Source: an uncultured Alphaproteobacteria bacterium (GTDB lineage: Bacteria > Pseudomonadota > Alphaproteobacteria > GCA-2731375). Taken from it: a stretch of DNA of 64,000 nt. The notes beneath the pieces are model-generated. The model was not told the DNA's origin and made no database searches. It saw only the letters and a list, made by a program, of their open reading frames with translations. This document shows, one piece after another, positions 180 to 7,049 of the stretch (position 1 is its first letter; every line of letters starts with the position of its first letter). Made by a program: the position numbers and the translations under genes. The stretch is from positions 372,001-436,000 of the forward strand of contig CATOSZ010000005.1 in the NCBI GenBank assembly GCA_951812805.1, read 5' to 3'.

Positions 180-803
180 ATGCGCATCGGTGTCGACTTC
201 GACAATACTCTCGCCTGTTACGACGAGCTGTTCGCGGCGTTGGCGAGCGAGGAAGGCCTGCTGTCGCGCACGCCGCCCGGCGGCAAGCGCGGGGTGCGCG
301 ATGCGGTTCGCAAGCTGCCGGACGGCGAGCTCGCCTGGCGCCGCCTCCAGGGCCTCGCCTATGGCCGCCACATGGCGCGGGCGACCTTGTTTCCAGGCGC
401 GGGCGAAACGCTTGCCCGCTGGCGGGGCGAGGGCGCGCGGATTTTCATCATCAGCCACAAGACCCGGGTCTCCGCCGACGATCCCCGCGGCGTGGACCTG
501 CGTCGCCAAGCCATGGCCTGGCTACGCGCGCACGATCTGGTGGGCGCGGAAACGGCACCGGTCCGCGCCGAGGACGTCTTCTTCAACGACAATCGCGCGG
601 ACAAGCTCGCGCGGATTGCGCGGCTCGGCTGCGACCTCTTCGTCGACGACCTGGAGGAGGTGTTTCGCGAACCCGCCTTTCCCCCCGCCACCGTGGCGGT
701 CCTGTTCGATCCGCACGGCACCACCACCGCCGCCGGCCCCTGGCATCGGATCGACGCCTGGTCCGAGCTGAACCGCAGGGAGGCCGCCGGTGCCGCCGCC
801 TGA
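180..803 (+). CDS. HAD-superfamily hydrolase
   Basis: N-terminus MRIGVDFDNTLACYD (DxDxT motif I); overlaps the next gene. Confidence 0.8.
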   Translation: MRIGVDFDNTLACYDELFAALASEEGLLSRTPPGGKRGVRDAVRKLPDGELAWRRLQGLAYGRHMARATLFPGAGETLARWRGEGARIFIISHKTRVSADDPRGVDLRRQAMAWLRAHDLVGAETAPVRAEDVFFNDNRADKLARIARLGCDLFVDDLEEVFREPAFPPATVAVLFDPHGTTTAAGPWHRIDAWSELNRREAAGAAA

Positions 804-1752
804 AGCCATCGCCGAAACCCTGTTGGGGGGCCGCGTCGGCCGGCTCGAACGGCTGCCGGGCGGCGGCAACAACCGGCTCTATCGTCTGCGGGCGGAGGAT
901 GGGCGCGACTTCGCCCTGAAGACCTACGCCCGCGACCGGGACGATGCCCGCGACCGGTTGGGAGCGGAGTTCGGCGGCCTCGACTTCCTCTGGTCCCGGG
1001 GCGAGCGGCGCGTGCCGCGCCCCATCGCCGCCGACAGAAGCGCAGGCGTCGCCCTCTACGACTGGATCGACGGCGAGGCGGTGACGACGCCCGGGCCGGC
1101 GGACCTCGCCGCCGTCGTCGATTTCGTCTCGGCGTTGCGCCGTGCCGGCGAAGCGCCGGAGGCCCGGGCCTTGCCGCTCGCCTCGGAGGCCTGCCTTTCC
1201 GGGCGCGAGATCCTGCGCCAGATCGCGGCCCGCCGCACGAGCCTCGGCGCCGTCGGCGACCCGGCGTTGCGTCGCTTTCTGCTGGAGCGTTTCGACCCGC
1301 TGCATGCCCGACTCGCAGGCCGGCTGCCCCTGGACCCCGAACCGGAGATCCCGCCCGAGGCGCGCCTGCTGTCGCCTTCCGACTTCGGCTTTCACAATGC
1401 GCTGCGCCGGCCGGACGGCGCCCTGGTCTTCCTCGACTTCGAATATTTCGGCTGGGACGATCCCGCCAAGCTGATCGCCGACTTCGAGCTGCACCCCGCC
1501 ATGGGCCTGAGCCCGGAGATGGCCCGCACCTTCCGCGCCGAGGTGCTGGCGCTGTTCCCCGACCAACCGGCGCTCGGCGCGCGCGTCGCGACGTTGCGCC
1601 CGCTCTTCGCGCTGCGCTGGAGCCTGATCGTGCTGAACCCCTTCCTTCCCCAGGGCCGGCGCCGGCAAGACTTTCTGGCGGACGGCGGCGCCCTGGACGT
1701 GCTGTGCCGGCGCCGCCTGGCGACGGCCGATGCCGTGCTTTCCCCGCTCTGA
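790..1752 (+). CDS. Aminoglycoside/choline phosphotransferase-like kinase
   Basis: APH-like GGGNNRLYRL ... FALKTY; LSPSDFGFHNALRR ... LVFLDFEYFGWDDPAKLIAD catalytic motifs. Confidence 0.8.
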   Translation: MPPPEAIAETLLGGRVGRLERLPGGGNNRLYRLRAEDGRDFALKTYARDRDDARDRLGAEFGGLDFLWSRGERRVPRPIAADRSAGVALYDWIDGEAVTTPGPADLAAVVDFVSALRRAGEAPEARALPLASEACLSGREILRQIAARRTSLGAVGDPALRRFLLERFDPLHARLAGRLPLDPEPEIPPEARLLSPSDFGFHNALRRPDGALVFLDFEYFGWDDPAKLIADFELHPAMGLSPEMARTFRAEVLALFPDQPALGARVATLRPLFALRWSLIVLNPFLPQGRRRQDFLADGGALDVLCRRRLATADAVLSPL

Positions 1753-1765
1753 CGAAAGGCTGCCC

Positions 1766-2638
1766 ATGATTCCCGAACCCCTTCGCATGCACCGCGAACT
1801 CGAGGCCCGCCTGGCGACGCCGCCACTGGACGAGCGTTCGCTGGCGCTCCGCCGTCTGGCCTTCCGCGGCATGGTCGGCGGCGAGCGCGGGCATCTCGGC
1901 TCCGCCTTTTCGGCGATCGAAATCCTGCGGGTGCTGTACGACGACATCATGGTGCACCGTGCCGATGAACCCGACTGGGCCTTGCGCGACCGGGCGATCC
2001 TCTCGAAGGGACATGGTTGCCTGGCGCTCTATGCCATCCTCGCCGATAGCGGTTATTTCCCGGCGGAGGAACTCGACCGCTTCTGCCATGTCGACGGCAT
2101 GCTCGGCGGTCATCCCGACGCGACCAAGGTGCCGGGCGTCGAGGCGTCGACCGGCGCGCTCGGCCACGGGCCGTCCATCGGCCTCGGCCTGGCGCTCGCG
2201 GCACGGATGAAGGCGGCGGTCTGGCGTGTCTTCGTCGTCACCGGCGACGGCGAGATCAACGAGGGCGCGGTCTGGGAAGCGGCGATGATGGCCGGCAAGC
2301 ACGGCCTCGACAACCTGACGATCATCGTCGACTACAATAAACACCAGTCCTACGCCGCCACGGCCGAGGTCCAGGACCTCGAACCCTTGGCGGCGAAGTG
2401 GGAAAGTTTCGGCTTCGCCGTCGGCGAGGTCGACGGGCATGACGTCGGCGAGTTGCGCCGCACGCTCACCTCCCTCCCCTTCAAGAGCGGTCGGCCGAGC
2501 GCGGTGATCGCCCATACCGTCAAGGGCAAGGGCGTCTCCTTCGCCGAGAACGACATGGCCTGGCATCACAAGTCGCGCCTCGCTCCGGATCAACTGGACG
2601 CGGTGTACGACGAACTCGGAGGGCGGCACGGTGCGTAA
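1766..2638 (+). CDS. Transketolase, N-terminal (TPP-binding) subunit
   Basis: ILSKGHGCLALYAILADSGYF, GHGPSIGLGLA, VVTGDGEINEGAVWEA. Confidence 0.9.
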   Translation: MIPEPLRMHRELEARLATPPLDERSLALRRLAFRGMVGGERGHLGSAFSAIEILRVLYDDIMVHRADEPDWALRDRAILSKGHGCLALYAILADSGYFPAEELDRFCHVDGMLGGHPDATKVPGVEASTGALGHGPSIGLGLALAARMKAAVWRVFVVTGDGEINEGAVWEAAMMAGKHGLDNLTIIVDYNKHQSYAATAEVQDLEPLAAKWESFGFAVGEVDGHDVGELRRTLTSLPFKSGRPSAVIAHTVKGKGVSFAENDMAWHHKSRLAPDQLDAVYDELGGRHGA

Positions 2639-3569
2639 AACCTGTCTGAACAGCGTCCTGGACCTGGCCCGGCGCGATGCCCGCGTGGTCTTCGTCGGCT
2701 CTGACCTCGGCGTCGGCACCCTGGACGCCTTTCGCGAAGAGCTGCCCGATCGCTTCTTCATGGAGGGGGTCGCCGAGCAGAACCTGATCGGCGTCGCCGC
2801 CGGCCTGGCGATGGAAGGCTACATCCCCTACGTCAACACCATCGCCACCTTCCTGACTCGGCGCTGCTATGAACAGGTCGCCGTCGACCTCTGCATGCAC
2901 CGCCTGCCCGTCCGCCTGATCGCCAACGGCGGCGGCCTGGTCTACGCCCCGCTCGGGCCCACCCACATGGCGATCGAGGACATGGGCATCATGCGGGCGC
3001 TGCCGAACATGACCGTCGTCGCGCCGTGCGACGCGGAAGAGATGGCCCGCTTCATGGAGAGCACGCTGGAGCTTCCCGGCCCCTGTTACATCCGCCTCGC
3101 CAAGGGCGGCGACCGGGTCGTGTCCGAGGCGGCGCACGGCTTCGAGATCGGCCAGGGCATCCAGCTTCGCCCCGAAGGCGAAGTGGCGCTGGTCGCCACC
3201 GGCATCGCCACGACGCGGGCGCTGGACGCGGCCGAGATCCTGACCGCGCAGGGAATCGAGGCGGGCGTCCTGCACCTGCATACGGTGAAGCCACTGGACG
3301 AAGCGCGTCTGCTGGATCTCGCCGGCCGGGCGCGGGCGGTCGTCACGATCGAGGAACACACCCTGGTCGGCGGCCTCGGCAGCGCCGTCGCGGATCTGCT
3401 GGTCGACCGCCTGCCCGGCACGGCGCCGCCGCTGTTGCGCCTCGGCCTGCCGGACGCCTTTCCCGCCAACTACGGTGGTCAGGACGATCTGCTGGCGCTG
3501 GCCGGCCTGACGCCCGAGGGCATCGCGGCATCGGTCGGGGACTTCCTCGATGCCAGACGGGCCGCCTGA
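2631..3569 (+). CDS. Transketolase, C-terminal subunit
   Basis: FMEGVAEQNLIGVAAGLAMEGYIPYVNTIATF; overlaps the N-terminal subunit gene. Confidence 0.9.
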   Translation: MRKTCLNSVLDLARRDARVVFVGSDLGVGTLDAFREELPDRFFMEGVAEQNLIGVAAGLAMEGYIPYVNTIATFLTRRCYEQVAVDLCMHRLPVRLIANGGGLVYAPLGPTHMAIEDMGIMRALPNMTVVAPCDAEEMARFMESTLELPGPCYIRLAKGGDRVVSEAAHGFEIGQGIQLRPEGEVALVATGIATTRALDAAEILTAQGIEAGVLHLHTVKPLDEARLLDLAGRARAVVTIEEHTLVGGLGSAVADLLVDRLPGTAPPLLRLGLPDAFPANYGGQDDLLALAGLTPEGIAASVGDFLDARRAA

Positions 3570-4396
3570 TGCTGGCGCTGGATCGCTATCCGACGGGCTT
3601 TCTCCCGGACGAGGAGACGGCGCTGCATCGCCGCTTCCTGGCGGACGGCCACGTCATTATTCCCGTCGCCGACCCCGACCGGCTGGACCGGCTGCGGGCC
3701 GCCATCGCCGGCCTTGCCGCGCACCATCTCGATATCGCGATGCCGGAGGCGCCGGGCGATTTTCTCGATGCGATCCACACCCGGGTCGGCCCGGCGGCGC
3801 TGAACGGCTTCAAGCTCGCCGTCATCGAAGGGTTGCAGGCCGATGCCGGCGTCCGGCGCGACTATTTCGAGCTGGCCCGCCCGGCGCTGGAAGTCCTCGT
3901 CGGCAACGAGCTGGCGATGCAGCGCCGCCTCAACCTCTCGGTGCAGCTGCCGGGCGACGACAGCGCGCTGCTGCCGGTGCACGCCGACGTGTGGAACGGC
4001 GATTCCCCCTTCGAGGTCGTGGTTTGGCTGCCCCTGGTCGATTGCCACGGCAGCAAGAGCATGTTCCTGCTGCCGCCCGCCGCCCAGGCCCGCCACGAGG
4101 CCGATTTCCAGCGCTATTCCGAGGCGGGCACCGACGAGCTGTTCGCGGCGATCCGCGACGAGGTCGTCTGGCTGGACGTGCCCTACGGCACCGCCCTGCT
4201 GTTCAGCCAGAACCTGATGCACGGCAACATCGTCAACGGCGAGGCGGAGACCCGCTGGTCGCTCAACTGCCGGTTCAAGAGCCTGTTCTCGCCCTACGCC
4301 AGCAACCGGTTGGGGGAGTTCTTCGAGCCGATCACCATCCGCGCGGCCAGCCGCCTCGGCATGGCGCATCGCATGCCGGAGGATTTCGATGAGTGA
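3569..4396 (+). CDS. 2OG-Fe(II)/phytanoyl-CoA dioxygenase-like protein (sporadic carbohydrate cluster type)
   Basis: ATG overlaps upstream TGA; LLPVHADVWNGDSPFEVVVWLPLVD ... HGNIVNGEAETRWSLNCRFKSLFSPY. Confidence 0.75.
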   Translation: MLALDRYPTGFLPDEETALHRRFLADGHVIIPVADPDRLDRLRAAIAGLAAHHLDIAMPEAPGDFLDAIHTRVGPAALNGFKLAVIEGLQADAGVRRDYFELARPALEVLVGNELAMQRRLNLSVQLPGDDSALLPVHADVWNGDSPFEVVVWLPLVDCHGSKSMFLLPPAAQARHEADFQRYSEAGTDELFAAIRDEVVWLDVPYGTALLFSQNLMHGNIVNGEAETRWSLNCRFKSLFSPYASNRLGEFFEPITIRAASRLGMAHRMPEDFDE

Positions 4397-4805
4397 GGCC
4401 CTGGCCTTTCCCAACCGCCGTGGCCATCGCGGCTATATCGCCTCGCGCCCGGTGCGCGGCCAGATGTGGCCGCAGCACGTGCAGAACCTGGTGGTACGCG
4501 ACCACGCCCGCAAGCACGGCCTCGAGTTCCTGTTGAGCGCGACGGAATACGCCATGGGCGGCTGCTACATGAACCTGGAGGCGGTGCTGGCGGAACTCGA
4601 CAATCTGGAAGGCGTCATCCTGTTCTCCGTCCATATGCTGCCCAAGCGGGCGGAGCGGCGCTGGGAAATCTACGACCGGGTGCTGGGTGCCGGCTGCGAC
4701 CTGCACGGCGCGTTGGAGGGGCTGGTGATCCGGGACGGCGACGATTTGTTGCGGCTGGAGGACCTCCTCATCCTCGAGACCCTGACCGGGGAGACGAGCC
4801 CTTGA
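4389..4805 (+). CDS. LIC12192-like sporadic carbohydrate cluster small protein
   Basis: 138 aa; RGYIASRPVRGQMWPQHVQNLVVRDHARKHGLEFLLSATEYAMGGCYMNLEAVL; matches remembered family pattern and neighbourhood. Confidence 0.7.
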   Translation: MSEALAFPNRRGHRGYIASRPVRGQMWPQHVQNLVVRDHARKHGLEFLLSATEYAMGGCYMNLEAVLAELDNLEGVILFSVHMLPKRAERRWEIYDRVLGAGCDLHGALEGLVIRDGDDLLRLEDLLILETLTGETSP

Positions 4806-5464
4806 GCTATGTCGATTTCGTCGGCCGCCTGCACACGGCGACGTCGCGCGACTACCTGGAGCGGGTAACGGCGCACGACAAGGCCGCCTGCGCCGAAGTG
4901 GCGCTTGGCTGGGGCGAGGACTATTGGGACGGCGCGCGGGAACACGGCTATGGCGGCTATCGCTATGACGGGCGCTGGCGCGTCGTCGCCGAGGCCATGG
5001 TGGCGCACTACGGCCTGGCGCCAGGCGCCCGCATCCTCGATGTCGGCTGCGGCAAAGGCTTTTTGCTGTACGAATTCACCCAGGTCCTGGAATCCGTCGA
5101 GGTCCACGGCATCGACATCTCCTGCTACGGGATCGAACACGCCAAGCCCGAGATCCGGGACCGGCTCGTCCACGGGCGGGCGAGCGCCCTGTCCTGGGAC
5201 GACGGCGCGTTCGATCTCGTCTACTCGATCAACACGCTGCACAACCTCTATAACCACGAGCTTCACAGCGCCGTCTGCGAGATGCAGCGCGTCGGCCGGG
5301 GGGCGAAGCACATCACCGTCGAATCCTACCGGAACGAGCGGGAGAAGGTGAACCTGCTCTATTGGCAGCTGACCTGCCGCGCCTTCCTGACGCCGCAGGA
5401 GTGGGAATTCGCCTTCGCCCAGGCCGGTTATGACGGCGACTACGGCTGCATCTATTTCGAGTGA
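4802..5464 (+). CDS. Class I SAM-dependent methyltransferase
   Basis: TTG start overlapping upstream stop; ARILDVGCGKGFLLYEF, DLVYSINTLHNLYN. Confidence 0.8.
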   Translation: MSYVDFVGRLHTATSRDYLERVTAHDKAACAEVALGWGEDYWDGAREHGYGGYRYDGRWRVVAEAMVAHYGLAPGARILDVGCGKGFLLYEFTQVLESVEVHGIDISCYGIEHAKPEIRDRLVHGRASALSWDDGAFDLVYSINTLHNLYNHELHSAVCEMQRVGRGAKHITVESYRNEREKVNLLYWQLTCRAFLTPQEWEFAFAQAGYDGDYGCIYFE

Positions 5465-5484
5465 CCGCCCAGGGAGACCCGCCC

Positions 5485-6165
5485 ATGAACGCCCGCACCC
5501 GGGAAGCCCAGTACGAGGACTGCCTGCGCGTCGCCGAGGACGCGGGCATCGCGCGCCTGGGCGTGATGAGCAACCAGGTCTGGCACGAGGATCCCAAGCG
5601 CCTGGCCTTCGTGCTGGCCCGCTACAAGTTCGTCGCCAAGATGCTGGCGGGGCGCAACCGGGTCCTGGAGGTCGGCTGCGCCGACGCCTTCGCCACCCGC
5701 ATCGTCCAGGCGGAGGTCGGCCACGTCACCGCCGTCGACCTCGACCCCGTGTTCATCGCCGACGCCGAGGGCCGCCGTCATGCCGACTGGCCGATGGACC
5801 TGCGGGTACACGACATGCTCTCGGGGCCCTTGGACGGTGGCTATGACGCCGCCTACAGCCTCGACGTGCTGGAACATATCGAGGCGGCGGCGGAGGATCG
5901 CTTCCTCGCCAATTTCGCCGCTTCCCTCAGGCCGGAGGGCGCCGCGATCATCGGGATGCCGTCACTCGCCAGCCAGGCCTACGCCTCGCCGCAAAGCCTC
6001 GCCGGTCATGTCAACTGCAAGGACGGCCCGGACCTGCAGGCGGTGCTGGCCCGCCATTTCACCCATGTCTTCGTCTTCTCGATGAACGACGAGGTGGTCC
6101 ACACCGGCTATTGGCCGATGGCGCACTACTATCTCGGCCTCTGCTGCGGCCCGAAGGCCCCGTGA
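5485..6165 (+). CDS. Class I SAM-dependent methyltransferase
   Basis: RVLEVGCADAFATRIVQAEVGHVTAVDLD ... YSLDVLEHIE. Confidence 0.8.
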   Translation: MNARTREAQYEDCLRVAEDAGIARLGVMSNQVWHEDPKRLAFVLARYKFVAKMLAGRNRVLEVGCADAFATRIVQAEVGHVTAVDLDPVFIADAEGRRHADWPMDLRVHDMLSGPLDGGYDAAYSLDVLEHIEAAAEDRFLANFAASLRPEGAAIIGMPSLASQAYASPQSLAGHVNCKDGPDLQAVLARHFTHVFVFSMNDEVVHTGYWPMAHYYLGLCCGPKAP

Positions 6166-7049
6166 CCCCGGCACGGCGGATCCTGATCGTCGGCGGCGAT
6201 TCCGCCATCGGCGCCGCCGCCGCCGCCCGCCTCGAAGCGGACGGCCACGACGTCTGGTCGTCCACACGCCGGCCCGGGACCGATCATCCGTTCCTCGACC
6301 TCGCCACCTTCGGTTCGCCGGCGACGTCCTTGCCGGATGTCGACATGGCGATCATCGCCGCCGCCATCGCCCGGCTCGGCGCCTGCGCCGAAGATCCCGC
6401 GGCCACCACCGCGGTCAACGTCACCGGCACGCTGCACCTCGCCCGCCACCTCGCCGAACGCGGCACCCGGGTCCTGTTTCTGTCGAGCGACAAGGTGTTC
6501 GACGGCTGCGTGGCCCACCGTCCGCGCCAGGACCGGGCGGCACCAGAGACCGAGTATGGCCGCCAGAAGGCCCTCGCCGAGGCCGGGATCCGCGCGCTCG
6601 GACCACGCGGCGCGATCCTGCGCTTGGCCAAGGTGTTGGGGCCGGGCGAACCGCTGTTGGTCGATTGGACCCGCGCCTTGCGGCAAGGGCGCGAGATTCA
6701 GCCCTTCGCCGATATGTACCTGGCACCGGTGCCCCGCGATCTGGTGGCCGAGACCCTGGCTGCCATCGTCGCGGGCGGTGGCGGCGGCGTCTACCAGCTC
6801 TCCGGGCGGGAGGAGGTGAGCTACGGGGAGCTCGCGAGCCGTCTCGCCCGCCGGCTCGGCGTCTCGGCGGACCTGGTCCGGCCCCGTGCCGCAGATCCCC
6901 ATCAGTTTCCGTTCGAAGCCCGGCCGCGCCACAGTACCCTCGACATGACGCGCGAGGCCCGCGAATTCGCCCTCGCGCCGCCCGGCATCGACGAGACTCT
7001 GAACGCCTTGGTCGGCGGCTTGAACGGGCGCGCGGATCGATTAGGCTGA
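6162..7049 (+). CDS. NAD(P)-dependent sugar epimerase/reductase (extended SDR, RmlD-like)
   Basis: GTG start overlapping upstream stop; RRILIVGGDSAIGAAAAARLEADGHDV, LFLSSDKVFDG, YGRQKALAE. Confidence 0.8.
   Translation: MTPARRILIVGGDSAIGAAAAARLEADGHDVWSSTRRPGTDHPFLDLATFGSPATSLPDVDMAIIAAAIARLGACAEDPAATTAVNVTGTLHLARHLAERGTRVLFLSSDKVFDGCVAHRPRQDRAAPETEYGRQKALAEAGIRALGPRGAILRLAKVLGPGEPLLVDWTRALRQGREIQPFADMYLAPVPRDLVAETLAAIVAGGGGGVYQLSGREEVSYGELASRLARRLGVSADLVRPRAADPHQFPFEARPRHSTLDMTREAREFALAPPGIDETLNALVGGLNGRADRLG

Follow-up and report, generated by a model that had tools for sequence, protein, structure and literature searches.

A split-transketolase operon with an oxygenase–LIC12192 gene pair in an uncultured alphaproteobacterium, a candidate half of a nucleotide-sugar pathway

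Gene content and conservation of the operon

The window analyzed here is a stretch of 64,000 nucleotides from an uncultured alphaproteobacterium. Our ORF calls over the window place nine genes on the + strand between positions 180 and 7049, with short overlaps or gaps between neighbors, and together with the domain matches they confirm the nine-gene operon, including a split transketolase, two methyltransferases and an RmlD-type SDR, that had been proposed from the sequence alone. The first gene (180–803) encodes a HAD-type phosphatase that retains all of the HAD motifs (DxDNT, SHKT, K and DD); an NCBIfam search of it gave no match, and hence none of the GmhB type. The second (790–1752) encodes an APH-like small-molecule kinase with the motifs SDFGFHN and DFEYFGWDD, for which a single-sequence Pfam search gave no match. 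As single sequences, both proteins are below Pfam cut-offs or absent, and their assignment draws on the profiles of their families and on motifs that are invariant; the profile of the kinase family (A3) matches corramycin phosphotransferase (8agy, 4.8e-5) and a putative fructosamine-3-kinase (3f7w). In ten relatives the two genes are fused into one.

The transketolase is encoded as an N-terminal, ThDP-binding chain (TKN, 1766–2638; PF00456, 138.5 bits) and a C-terminal chain (TKC, 2631–3569; PF02779/PF02780) with the family signature GGGxVYAPLGPTH. These are followed by a 2OG-Fe(II) oxygenase (3569–4396; TIGR04324, 291.7 bits against a cut-off of 150) and a LIC12192-family protein of 138 aa (4389–4805; TIGR04323, 138.4 bits against 55). 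Both score about twice their cut-offs, which bears out the sequence-only reading that they belong to the sporadic carbohydrate families. Two SAM-dependent methyltransferases identified by domain matches (MT1, 4802–5464, and MT2, 5461–6165) and an RmlD-like SDR reductase/epimerase (6162–7049) complete the operon; the SDR matches PF04321 at 110.9 bits and TIGR01214 at 105 bits, the latter under its equivalog cut-off.

We gathered 80 relative loci, from at least seven phyla, through the LIC12192 protein alone. The HAD, APH-like, TKN, TKC, oxygenase, LIC12192 and methyltransferase genes recur together across these loci. The oxygenase is present in 80 (the window counted) and MT1, the next best-conserved companion of LIC12192, in 71, followed by the split transketolase (56–59), HAD/APH (54–55), an HldE-like gene and an epimerase (49 each), a LegB-like SDR (40) and a GmhA-like gene (35). 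In the loci with full 10-kb flanks, found via the 138-aa protein only, TKN, TKC and HAD/APH are present in 36 out of 46. The association of these genes is not due to chance, and the conserved neighborhood of HAD, APH, both transketolase halves, oxygenase and LIC12192 is as had been anticipated. Of 290 genomes from the class, 22 carry the 138-aa protein above cut-off, 20 carry the APH family and 16 carry both (Fisher p ~4e-18, uncorrected for phylogeny); phyletic co-occurrence of the HldE-like gene gives p ~2e-17. TIGR04323 is thus patchy in the class, and it is located inside carbohydrate gene clusters.

The two NCBIfam families (SpoChoClust_1/_2) describe such a patchy, adjacent pair in carbohydrate clusters, and both are matched here. 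Our analysis adds to these names the pathway partners, a second locus, a link to flagellin, the fold of LIC12192 and carriage by phages. The families are known from annotation databases; our literature search found no paper that describes the pathway or uses the names of these families, in agreement with the earlier view of an under-described pathway.

The split transketolase and the oxygenase with its partner

TKN and TKC find their PDB matches in the split transketolase of Carboxydothermus (TKN best in 6yak, E 6e-65; TKC in 6yaj, E 3e-60), which likewise consists of two chains with the same ThDP motifs and the same catalytic Glu. Over 55–58 relatives, the ThDP motif, the catalytic Glu and the N-chain histidines are invariant or nearly so. 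The pocket differs, reading THAGLTVGEDGASH in the Carboxydothermus enzyme and NGGGLVYAPLGPTH in the operon family. In TKC, G29, G100, L108 and K158 stand in place of S, H, D and R, with R2 retained, and these changes are conserved across 58 relatives, so that most of the classical phosphate- and hydroxyl-binding residues of the ketose site are replaced. We take the swaps to correspond to S385 to G, H461 to G, D469 to L and R520 to K in E. coli transketolase numbering. Judged by these residues, the family keeps its ThDP machinery with a uniformly rewritten substrate pocket, and the standard sedoheptulose-7-phosphate reaction is doubtful, as the residues that bind the ketose phosphate are replaced.

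The oxygenase has invariant H138, D140, H218 and R229, forming the HxD...H motif with the 2OG-binding Arg, and its predicted structure (pLDDT 90.4) matches Fe/2OG oxygenases including HygX, AviO1 and SnoN/SnoK. In 75 of 76 loci its gene lies within 60 bases of that for LIC12192. For LIC12192, searches against the PDB by sequence, single or profile, gave no useful match, and the top eleven structural matches of its predicted model are all serine recombinases, among them 3bvp, 4bqq, 3guv and 2rsl (probability 0.97–1.00). A profile-profile alignment with resolvases, in which H/F-M-L-P of LIC12192 falls over D-R-L-G, is weak (P 0.037), and the assignment of the fold therefore rests on the structural match. 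Neither an invariant Ser at the catalytic position of the recombinases nor the DRxxR motif is found in the family. LIC12192 is thus predicted to have the catalytic-domain fold of serine recombinases but to lack their active site. Because its gene adjoins that of the oxygenase in nearly every locus, LIC12192 most likely assists this enzyme, as an accessory or substrate-handling protein that does not act on DNA.

A second locus and a probable link to flagellin

Directly upstream of the cluster in relatives are genes for an HldE-like nucleotidyltransferase-kinase, a GmhA-like isomerase and an epimerase. In the genome studied here, the HldE-like gene (C1:386810–388396, 71.6% to its counterpart in locus L052) and the epimerase (C1:388393–389412, 72.5% to that in L059) are paired on C1, a contig other than that of the operon. 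The pair adjoins a gene for an SBBP beta-propeller protein, a family that also flanks the contiguous cluster in relatives. The GmhA-like gene is apart from this pair, the sole homolog found in the genome (43%) being on contig C3. The absence of a nucleotidyltransferase near the operon had suggested a free small phosphorylated metabolite; since the gene lies upstream in relatives and within C1:386810–389412 here, the operon appears instead to make up one half of a route to a nucleotide sugar. Such a free metabolite was rejected as the end product.

An LPS- or O-antigen-like context, as earlier supposed, gives way in the nearest relatives to flagellin; in seven relatives, the cluster runs directly into a TPR-GT41 glycosyltransferase gene and then a flagellin gene, six of them with FlaF. 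This gene order argues that flagellin is probably the sugar acceptor, and we infer the same for our strain. In its genome, the GT41 gene beside flagellin is broken up either by an IS21-type element or by a join in the assembly, the stretches concerned being C5:205.9–209.2 kb and C1:557.8–563.5 kb, and there are two further GT41 genes; because of the interruption, transfer to flagellin may have been lost or be performed by one of these two. The Caulobacter TPR glycosyltransferase FlmG provides a precedent for flagellin glycosylation (PMC7591256). The two systems share the scheme of a cytoplasmic TPR-glycosyltransferase acting on flagellin and a dedicated sugar pathway, whereas the donor pathway of the operon is unrelated to pseudaminic acid synthesis. 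Most other loci have no flagellin within 10 kb, and the acceptor therefore probably varies.

Proposed pathway, alternative readings and phage carriage

We propose, with a probability of about 0.6, that the operon encodes the later half of a dedicated route to a nucleotide sugar, which is tailored and, in its own lineage, goes to flagellin. The gene set, its co-conservation, the C1 locus, the catalytic motifs, the transketolase pocket, the predicted fold of LIC12192 and the flagellin/GT41 synteny in relatives are read from sequence; from these we infer a methylated, two-carbon-extended sugar of heptose or octose type and an order of steps. The split transketolase would transfer a two-carbon unit to an aldehyde sugar, giving a longer ketose that the GmhA-like isomerase would convert to an aldose. 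The HldE-like kinase domain would place a phosphate at C1 of the sugar and the HAD phosphatase would take off the distal one, after which the NDP-sugar would be formed by the HldE-like nucleotidyltransferase domain; the APH-like kinase would provide further or salvage phosphorylation. The NDP-sugar would then be tailored by epimerases/reductases, by the Fe/2OG oxygenase together with LIC12192 as its constant partner, and by the methyltransferases, and in this lineage the cytoplasmic TPR-GT41 enzyme would place the sugar on flagellin. The product is thus probably an unusual methylated sugar, its destination in this lineage most likely the coat of the flagellum.

The proposed route shares with the ADP-/GDP-heptose pathway (GmhA, HldE, GmhB, HldD) its isomerase, kinase and nucleotidyltransferase superfamilies, a HAD phosphatase and an SDR epimerase, and differs from it in the reversed nucleotidyltransferase-kinase order, the absence of GmhB and HldD equivalogs, and the addition of a dedicated split transketolase, APH-like kinase, oxygenase, LIC12192 and methyltransferases. 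The HldE-like, GmhA-like and epimerase genes, being of heptose-pathway type, could simply make ADP-heptose for the LPS core, leaving the operon with a separate product such as a small phosphorylated metabolite. This would suit the four genomes that have an HldE-like gene without LIC12192 or APH, and our own genome, where no second HldE-like gene is found at E<1e-3 save for a weak kinase match. It is nevertheless improbable, given that the HldE-like gene, whole or as its two separate domains, lies inside 49 of the 80 clusters, which span many phyla, and inside the cluster of a phage, and that all 20 APH carriers among the 290 genomes have it; moreover, the family member scores 169.5 bits against the HldE equivalog cut-off of 521, no model reaches such a cut-off, and the domain order is the reverse of that in classical HldE. 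Still less probable is a DNA-acting role of LIC12192, as a serine recombinase or a regulator of the cluster. Its predicted fold and one sub-cutoff TIGR04323 match that is a resolvase protein speak for such a role; against it stand the hydrophobic-Met-Leu-Pro in place of DRLGR, the catalytic position without an invariant Ser, the length of 138 aa with no downstream DNA-binding domain, and no match to Pfam Resolvase.

A more serious contender, though an unlikely one, is that the ThDP heterodimer adds a two-carbon branch to a nucleotide- or glycan-bound keto-sugar, which the oxygenase and LIC12192 then finish. YerE forms the two-carbon branch of yersiniose. Like YerE and the AviB1/AviB2 and AviO2 enzymes of avilamycin, the operon would use ThDP-dependent two-carbon transfer for a sugar, in the avilamycin case also with a non-heme iron enzyme; AviB1/AviB2 and YerE, however, add a pyruvate-derived unit to keto-sugars, whereas the operon has transketolase-type chains with a heptose-type isomerase and kinase. 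Branching would fit the family-wide replacement of the canonical phosphate and hydroxyl contacts, the LegB-like, 4,6-dehydratase-type SDR in 40 of 80 loci, and loci L105 and L112, which have an E1-alpha/E1-beta pair instead of a transketolase (two more loci hold both). It also has a precedent in the ThDP heterodimer AviB1/AviB2, proposed with the non-heme iron enzyme AviO2 to form the two-carbon branch of eurekanate (PMC4425429). Nevertheless, the cluster of the window lineage lacks such a dehydratase, its heptose-type isomerase, kinase and nucleotidyltransferase are a better fit to a free ketose intermediate, and in phages the isomerase and kinase stay with the transketolase.

Returning to the nucleotide-sugar pathway, it would give two orphan NCBI families a place in a defined route with a predicted substrate class and acceptor. 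More tentatively, at clearly less than even odds, it may represent a new nucleotide-sugar class, made with a new-pocket transketolase and an oxygenase with an obligate, recruited recombinase-fold partner, and used for flagellin in alphaproteobacteria, for other surface glycans and, when phage-borne, for decoration of virion or host. If so, enzymology would gain two novelties, a recombinase fold put to work on sugars and a transketolase whose pocket is rewritten throughout its family.

Phages supply a reduced gene set of the pathway. Searches for LIC12192 or oxygenase relatives in named phage genomes, and for LIC12192 relatives in plasmids, returned none. Viral matches L181–L185 were rejected as carriers, being split transketolases of another kind that lack the signature motif, as was L166, which appears bacterial; L169, L179 and L180 are at most candidate phage sequences. 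The pathway is carried by two unrelated phages, one of which has the oxygenase and LIC12192 genes. The cargo of that phage comprises the nucleotidyltransferase, isomerase, epimerases, TKN, TKC, oxygenase, LIC12192, MT1, MT2 and a PfkB kinase, and these genes sit among those for helicase, terminase and portal proteins. Among viral contigs, this phage was found through the oxygenase scan, having been missed by that with LIC12192.

The operon and the remainder of its pathway

All nine ORFs of the operon at 180-7049 (+) are present, run in one direction and are tightly packed, as the sequence-only reading had described. In an HMM check the 2OG-Fe(II) oxygenase falls in TIGR04324 and the 138-aa protein (LIC12192) in TIGR04323, both proteins scoring far over the curated cut-offs. 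The best solved-structure match of both transketolase halves (the N- and C-chains, TKN and TKC) is the split transketolase of Carboxydothermus. Single-sequence support for the HAD and APH assignments is weak; these identities are backed by family profiles and invariant catalytic motifs. Because the genes on either side are unrelated to the operon, we regard it as an island.

Searching 85,462 species genomes with an LIC12192 alignment gave 80 loci, whose record titles cover several Proteobacteria classes, Acidobacteriota, Cyanobacteria, Myxococcota, Eremiobacterota, Marinimicrobia and Bacteroidota. Clustering all ORFs of these loci places the oxygenase in 80, the methyltransferase MT1 in 71, the transketolase chains in 56-59 and HAD/APH in 54-55 (fused into one gene in ten), together with families that have no member in the window: HldE-like (49), SDR epimerase (49), LegB-like SDR (40) and GmhA-like isomerase (35). 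The suggestion that HAD, APH, TKN, TKC, oxygenase and LIC12192 are co-conserved is borne out by this neighbourhood survey, with TKN, TKC and HAD/APH together in 36 of 46 loci with full flanks, 32 of which also carry the HldE-like gene. In the HldE-like protein the nucleotidyltransferase domain precedes the PfkB kinase domain, whereas classical HldE of the ADP-heptose pathway has the opposite order; model coordinates agree with this reversal.

The closest relatives share the gene order SBBP (divergent), HldE-like, GmhA-like, epimerase, HAD, APH, TKN, TKC, oxygenase, LIC12192, MT1, MT2, RmlD, and the window (contig C5) holds the HAD-to-RmlD portion of this contiguous cluster. In the source genome the SBBP, HldE-like and epimerase genes are grouped at C1:383964-389412; the GmhA-like gene is absent from this group, and a homologue (43%) lies on C3. 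The earlier statement was that no nucleotidyltransferase is nearby; an HldE-like nucleotidyltransferase-kinase lies in the C1 group and, in relatives, within the cluster. HldE-like/APH genes and LIC12192 likewise occupy separate contigs in other class genomes (e.g. G029, G161); among 290 class genomes, LIC12192 co-occurs with the HldE-like gene in 17 and with APH in 16 (Fisher p about 2e-17 and 4e-18, values that take no account of relatedness), and each of the 20 genomes with APH also carries the HldE-like gene. Judged from gene content, this is a real and widespread nucleotide-sugar pathway, undescribed as far as the literature searched shows, of which the window holds one half. In the source genome and seven relatives, the SBBP beta-propeller gene (L134:11964-14660) lies divergent to the HldE-like gene; it possibly encodes a surface or secreted protein.

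Transketolase chemistry and phage-borne versions

The catalytic Glu is retained across 58 C-chains, and the ThDP and histidine residues in 55 N-chains. At pocket positions that we take to correspond to the E. coli numbering, the 58 C-chains show Ser385 to Gly in 46, His461 to Gly in 58, Asp469 to Leu in 57 and Arg520 to Lys in 55, with Arg358 retained. Pyruvate-dehydrogenase-E1-like alpha/beta pairs occur in two loci lacking transketolase, and two further loci carry both (L105, L112, L118 and L128 in all). Given this conservation and the E1 pairs, ThDP-dependent two-carbon transfer looks central, with an unusual substrate. The transketolase may catalyze two-carbon branching, for which there is precedent (PMC4425429) and with which the altered pocket is consistent; however, the isomerase and kinase are of heptose type, and for this reason chain extension by the transketolase is favoured.

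Pathway genes are also carried by a 46.7-kb viral contig and a second contig, 99.98% identical (L167 and L168; IMG/VR 3300047552_000915 and 3300042988_001136), from a phage with an SU10-type portal. Their row reads SDR, nucleotidyltransferase, GmhA-like, epimerase, MT2, HNH endonuclease, TKN, TKC, oxygenase, LIC12192, MT1, terminase large subunit, PfkB kinase and SU10-type portal, so that eleven sugar-pathway genes are interspersed among genes for replication, packaging and the portal. Farther along, in L174, lie a GtrB-like glycosyltransferase and a methyltransferase. We count L178 (IMG/VR 3300044983_000045) as a second phage because a terminase lies just downstream of its cluster of SDR, nucleotidyltransferase-kinase, GmhA-like, TKN, TKC, MT1 and C-methyltransferase genes; the stretch read lacks oxygenase and LIC12192, and HAD and APH are absent from the stretches read in both phages. 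The signature GGGxxYAPLGxTH is common to cluster TKC and the two phages; the further split transketolases identified on viral contigs lack it. The phage gene sets suggest a core of transketolase, isomerase, kinase, nucleotidyltransferase, epimerase and MT1, with oxygenase-LIC12192 as a putative optional tailoring pair. On two viral contigs that are candidate phages, L179 and L180 (IMG/VR 3300020171_000339 and 3300005663_000063), genes for TKN, TKC, PfkB kinase and radical SAM proteins follow one another.

Fold and role of LIC12192

The AlphaFold model of LIC12192 (pLDDT 90.7, pTM 0.84) has serine recombinase catalytic domains as its top eleven PDB matches (E 6e-4 to 1.5e-2, TM mostly about 0.6). 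Sequence likeness to resolvases is marginal, and a resolvase protein is among the below-cutoff matches of the TIGR model. Although the predicted fold is alike, the recombinase motif DRLGR is replaced in the LIC12192 family, where Y16, Q32, R37, E53, P85, R91 and E110 are invariant instead. The oxygenase adjoins LIC12192 in 75 of 76 loci, and we infer that LIC12192 is a partner of the oxygenase or a substrate-handling protein.

Flagellin loci and an interrupted GT41 gene

Seven loci (L050, L062, L063, L084, L096, L116 and L120) have a TPR-GT41 glycosyltransferase gene and flagellin genes directly after the cluster, with FlaF also present in six; flagellin is therefore the probable acceptor of the sugar in this lineage. 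Caulobacter FlmG is a TPR glycosyltransferase needed for flagellin modification (PMC7591256). At C5:204149-205855 the source genome carries flagellin and FlaF genes, together with a member of the family that relatives place between these two. Only the start of a TPR-GT41 gene, a short 5' fragment, adjoins them and is cut by an IS21-type element, fragment and element together spanning L148:8934-12238 (C5:205934-209238). The remainder lies at C1:557797-560445 behind another element copy, the two together spanning L145:8797-14502 (C1:557797-563502). The two copies (about 2.97 kb, istA/istB) are 99.97% identical, and the split stems either from a genuine rearrangement or from a join made in assembly. 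The source genome has two further GT41 genes. Identical transposase sequence on two of its contigs (L003:2-556 and L146:89-1195) is another sign of recent IS activity.
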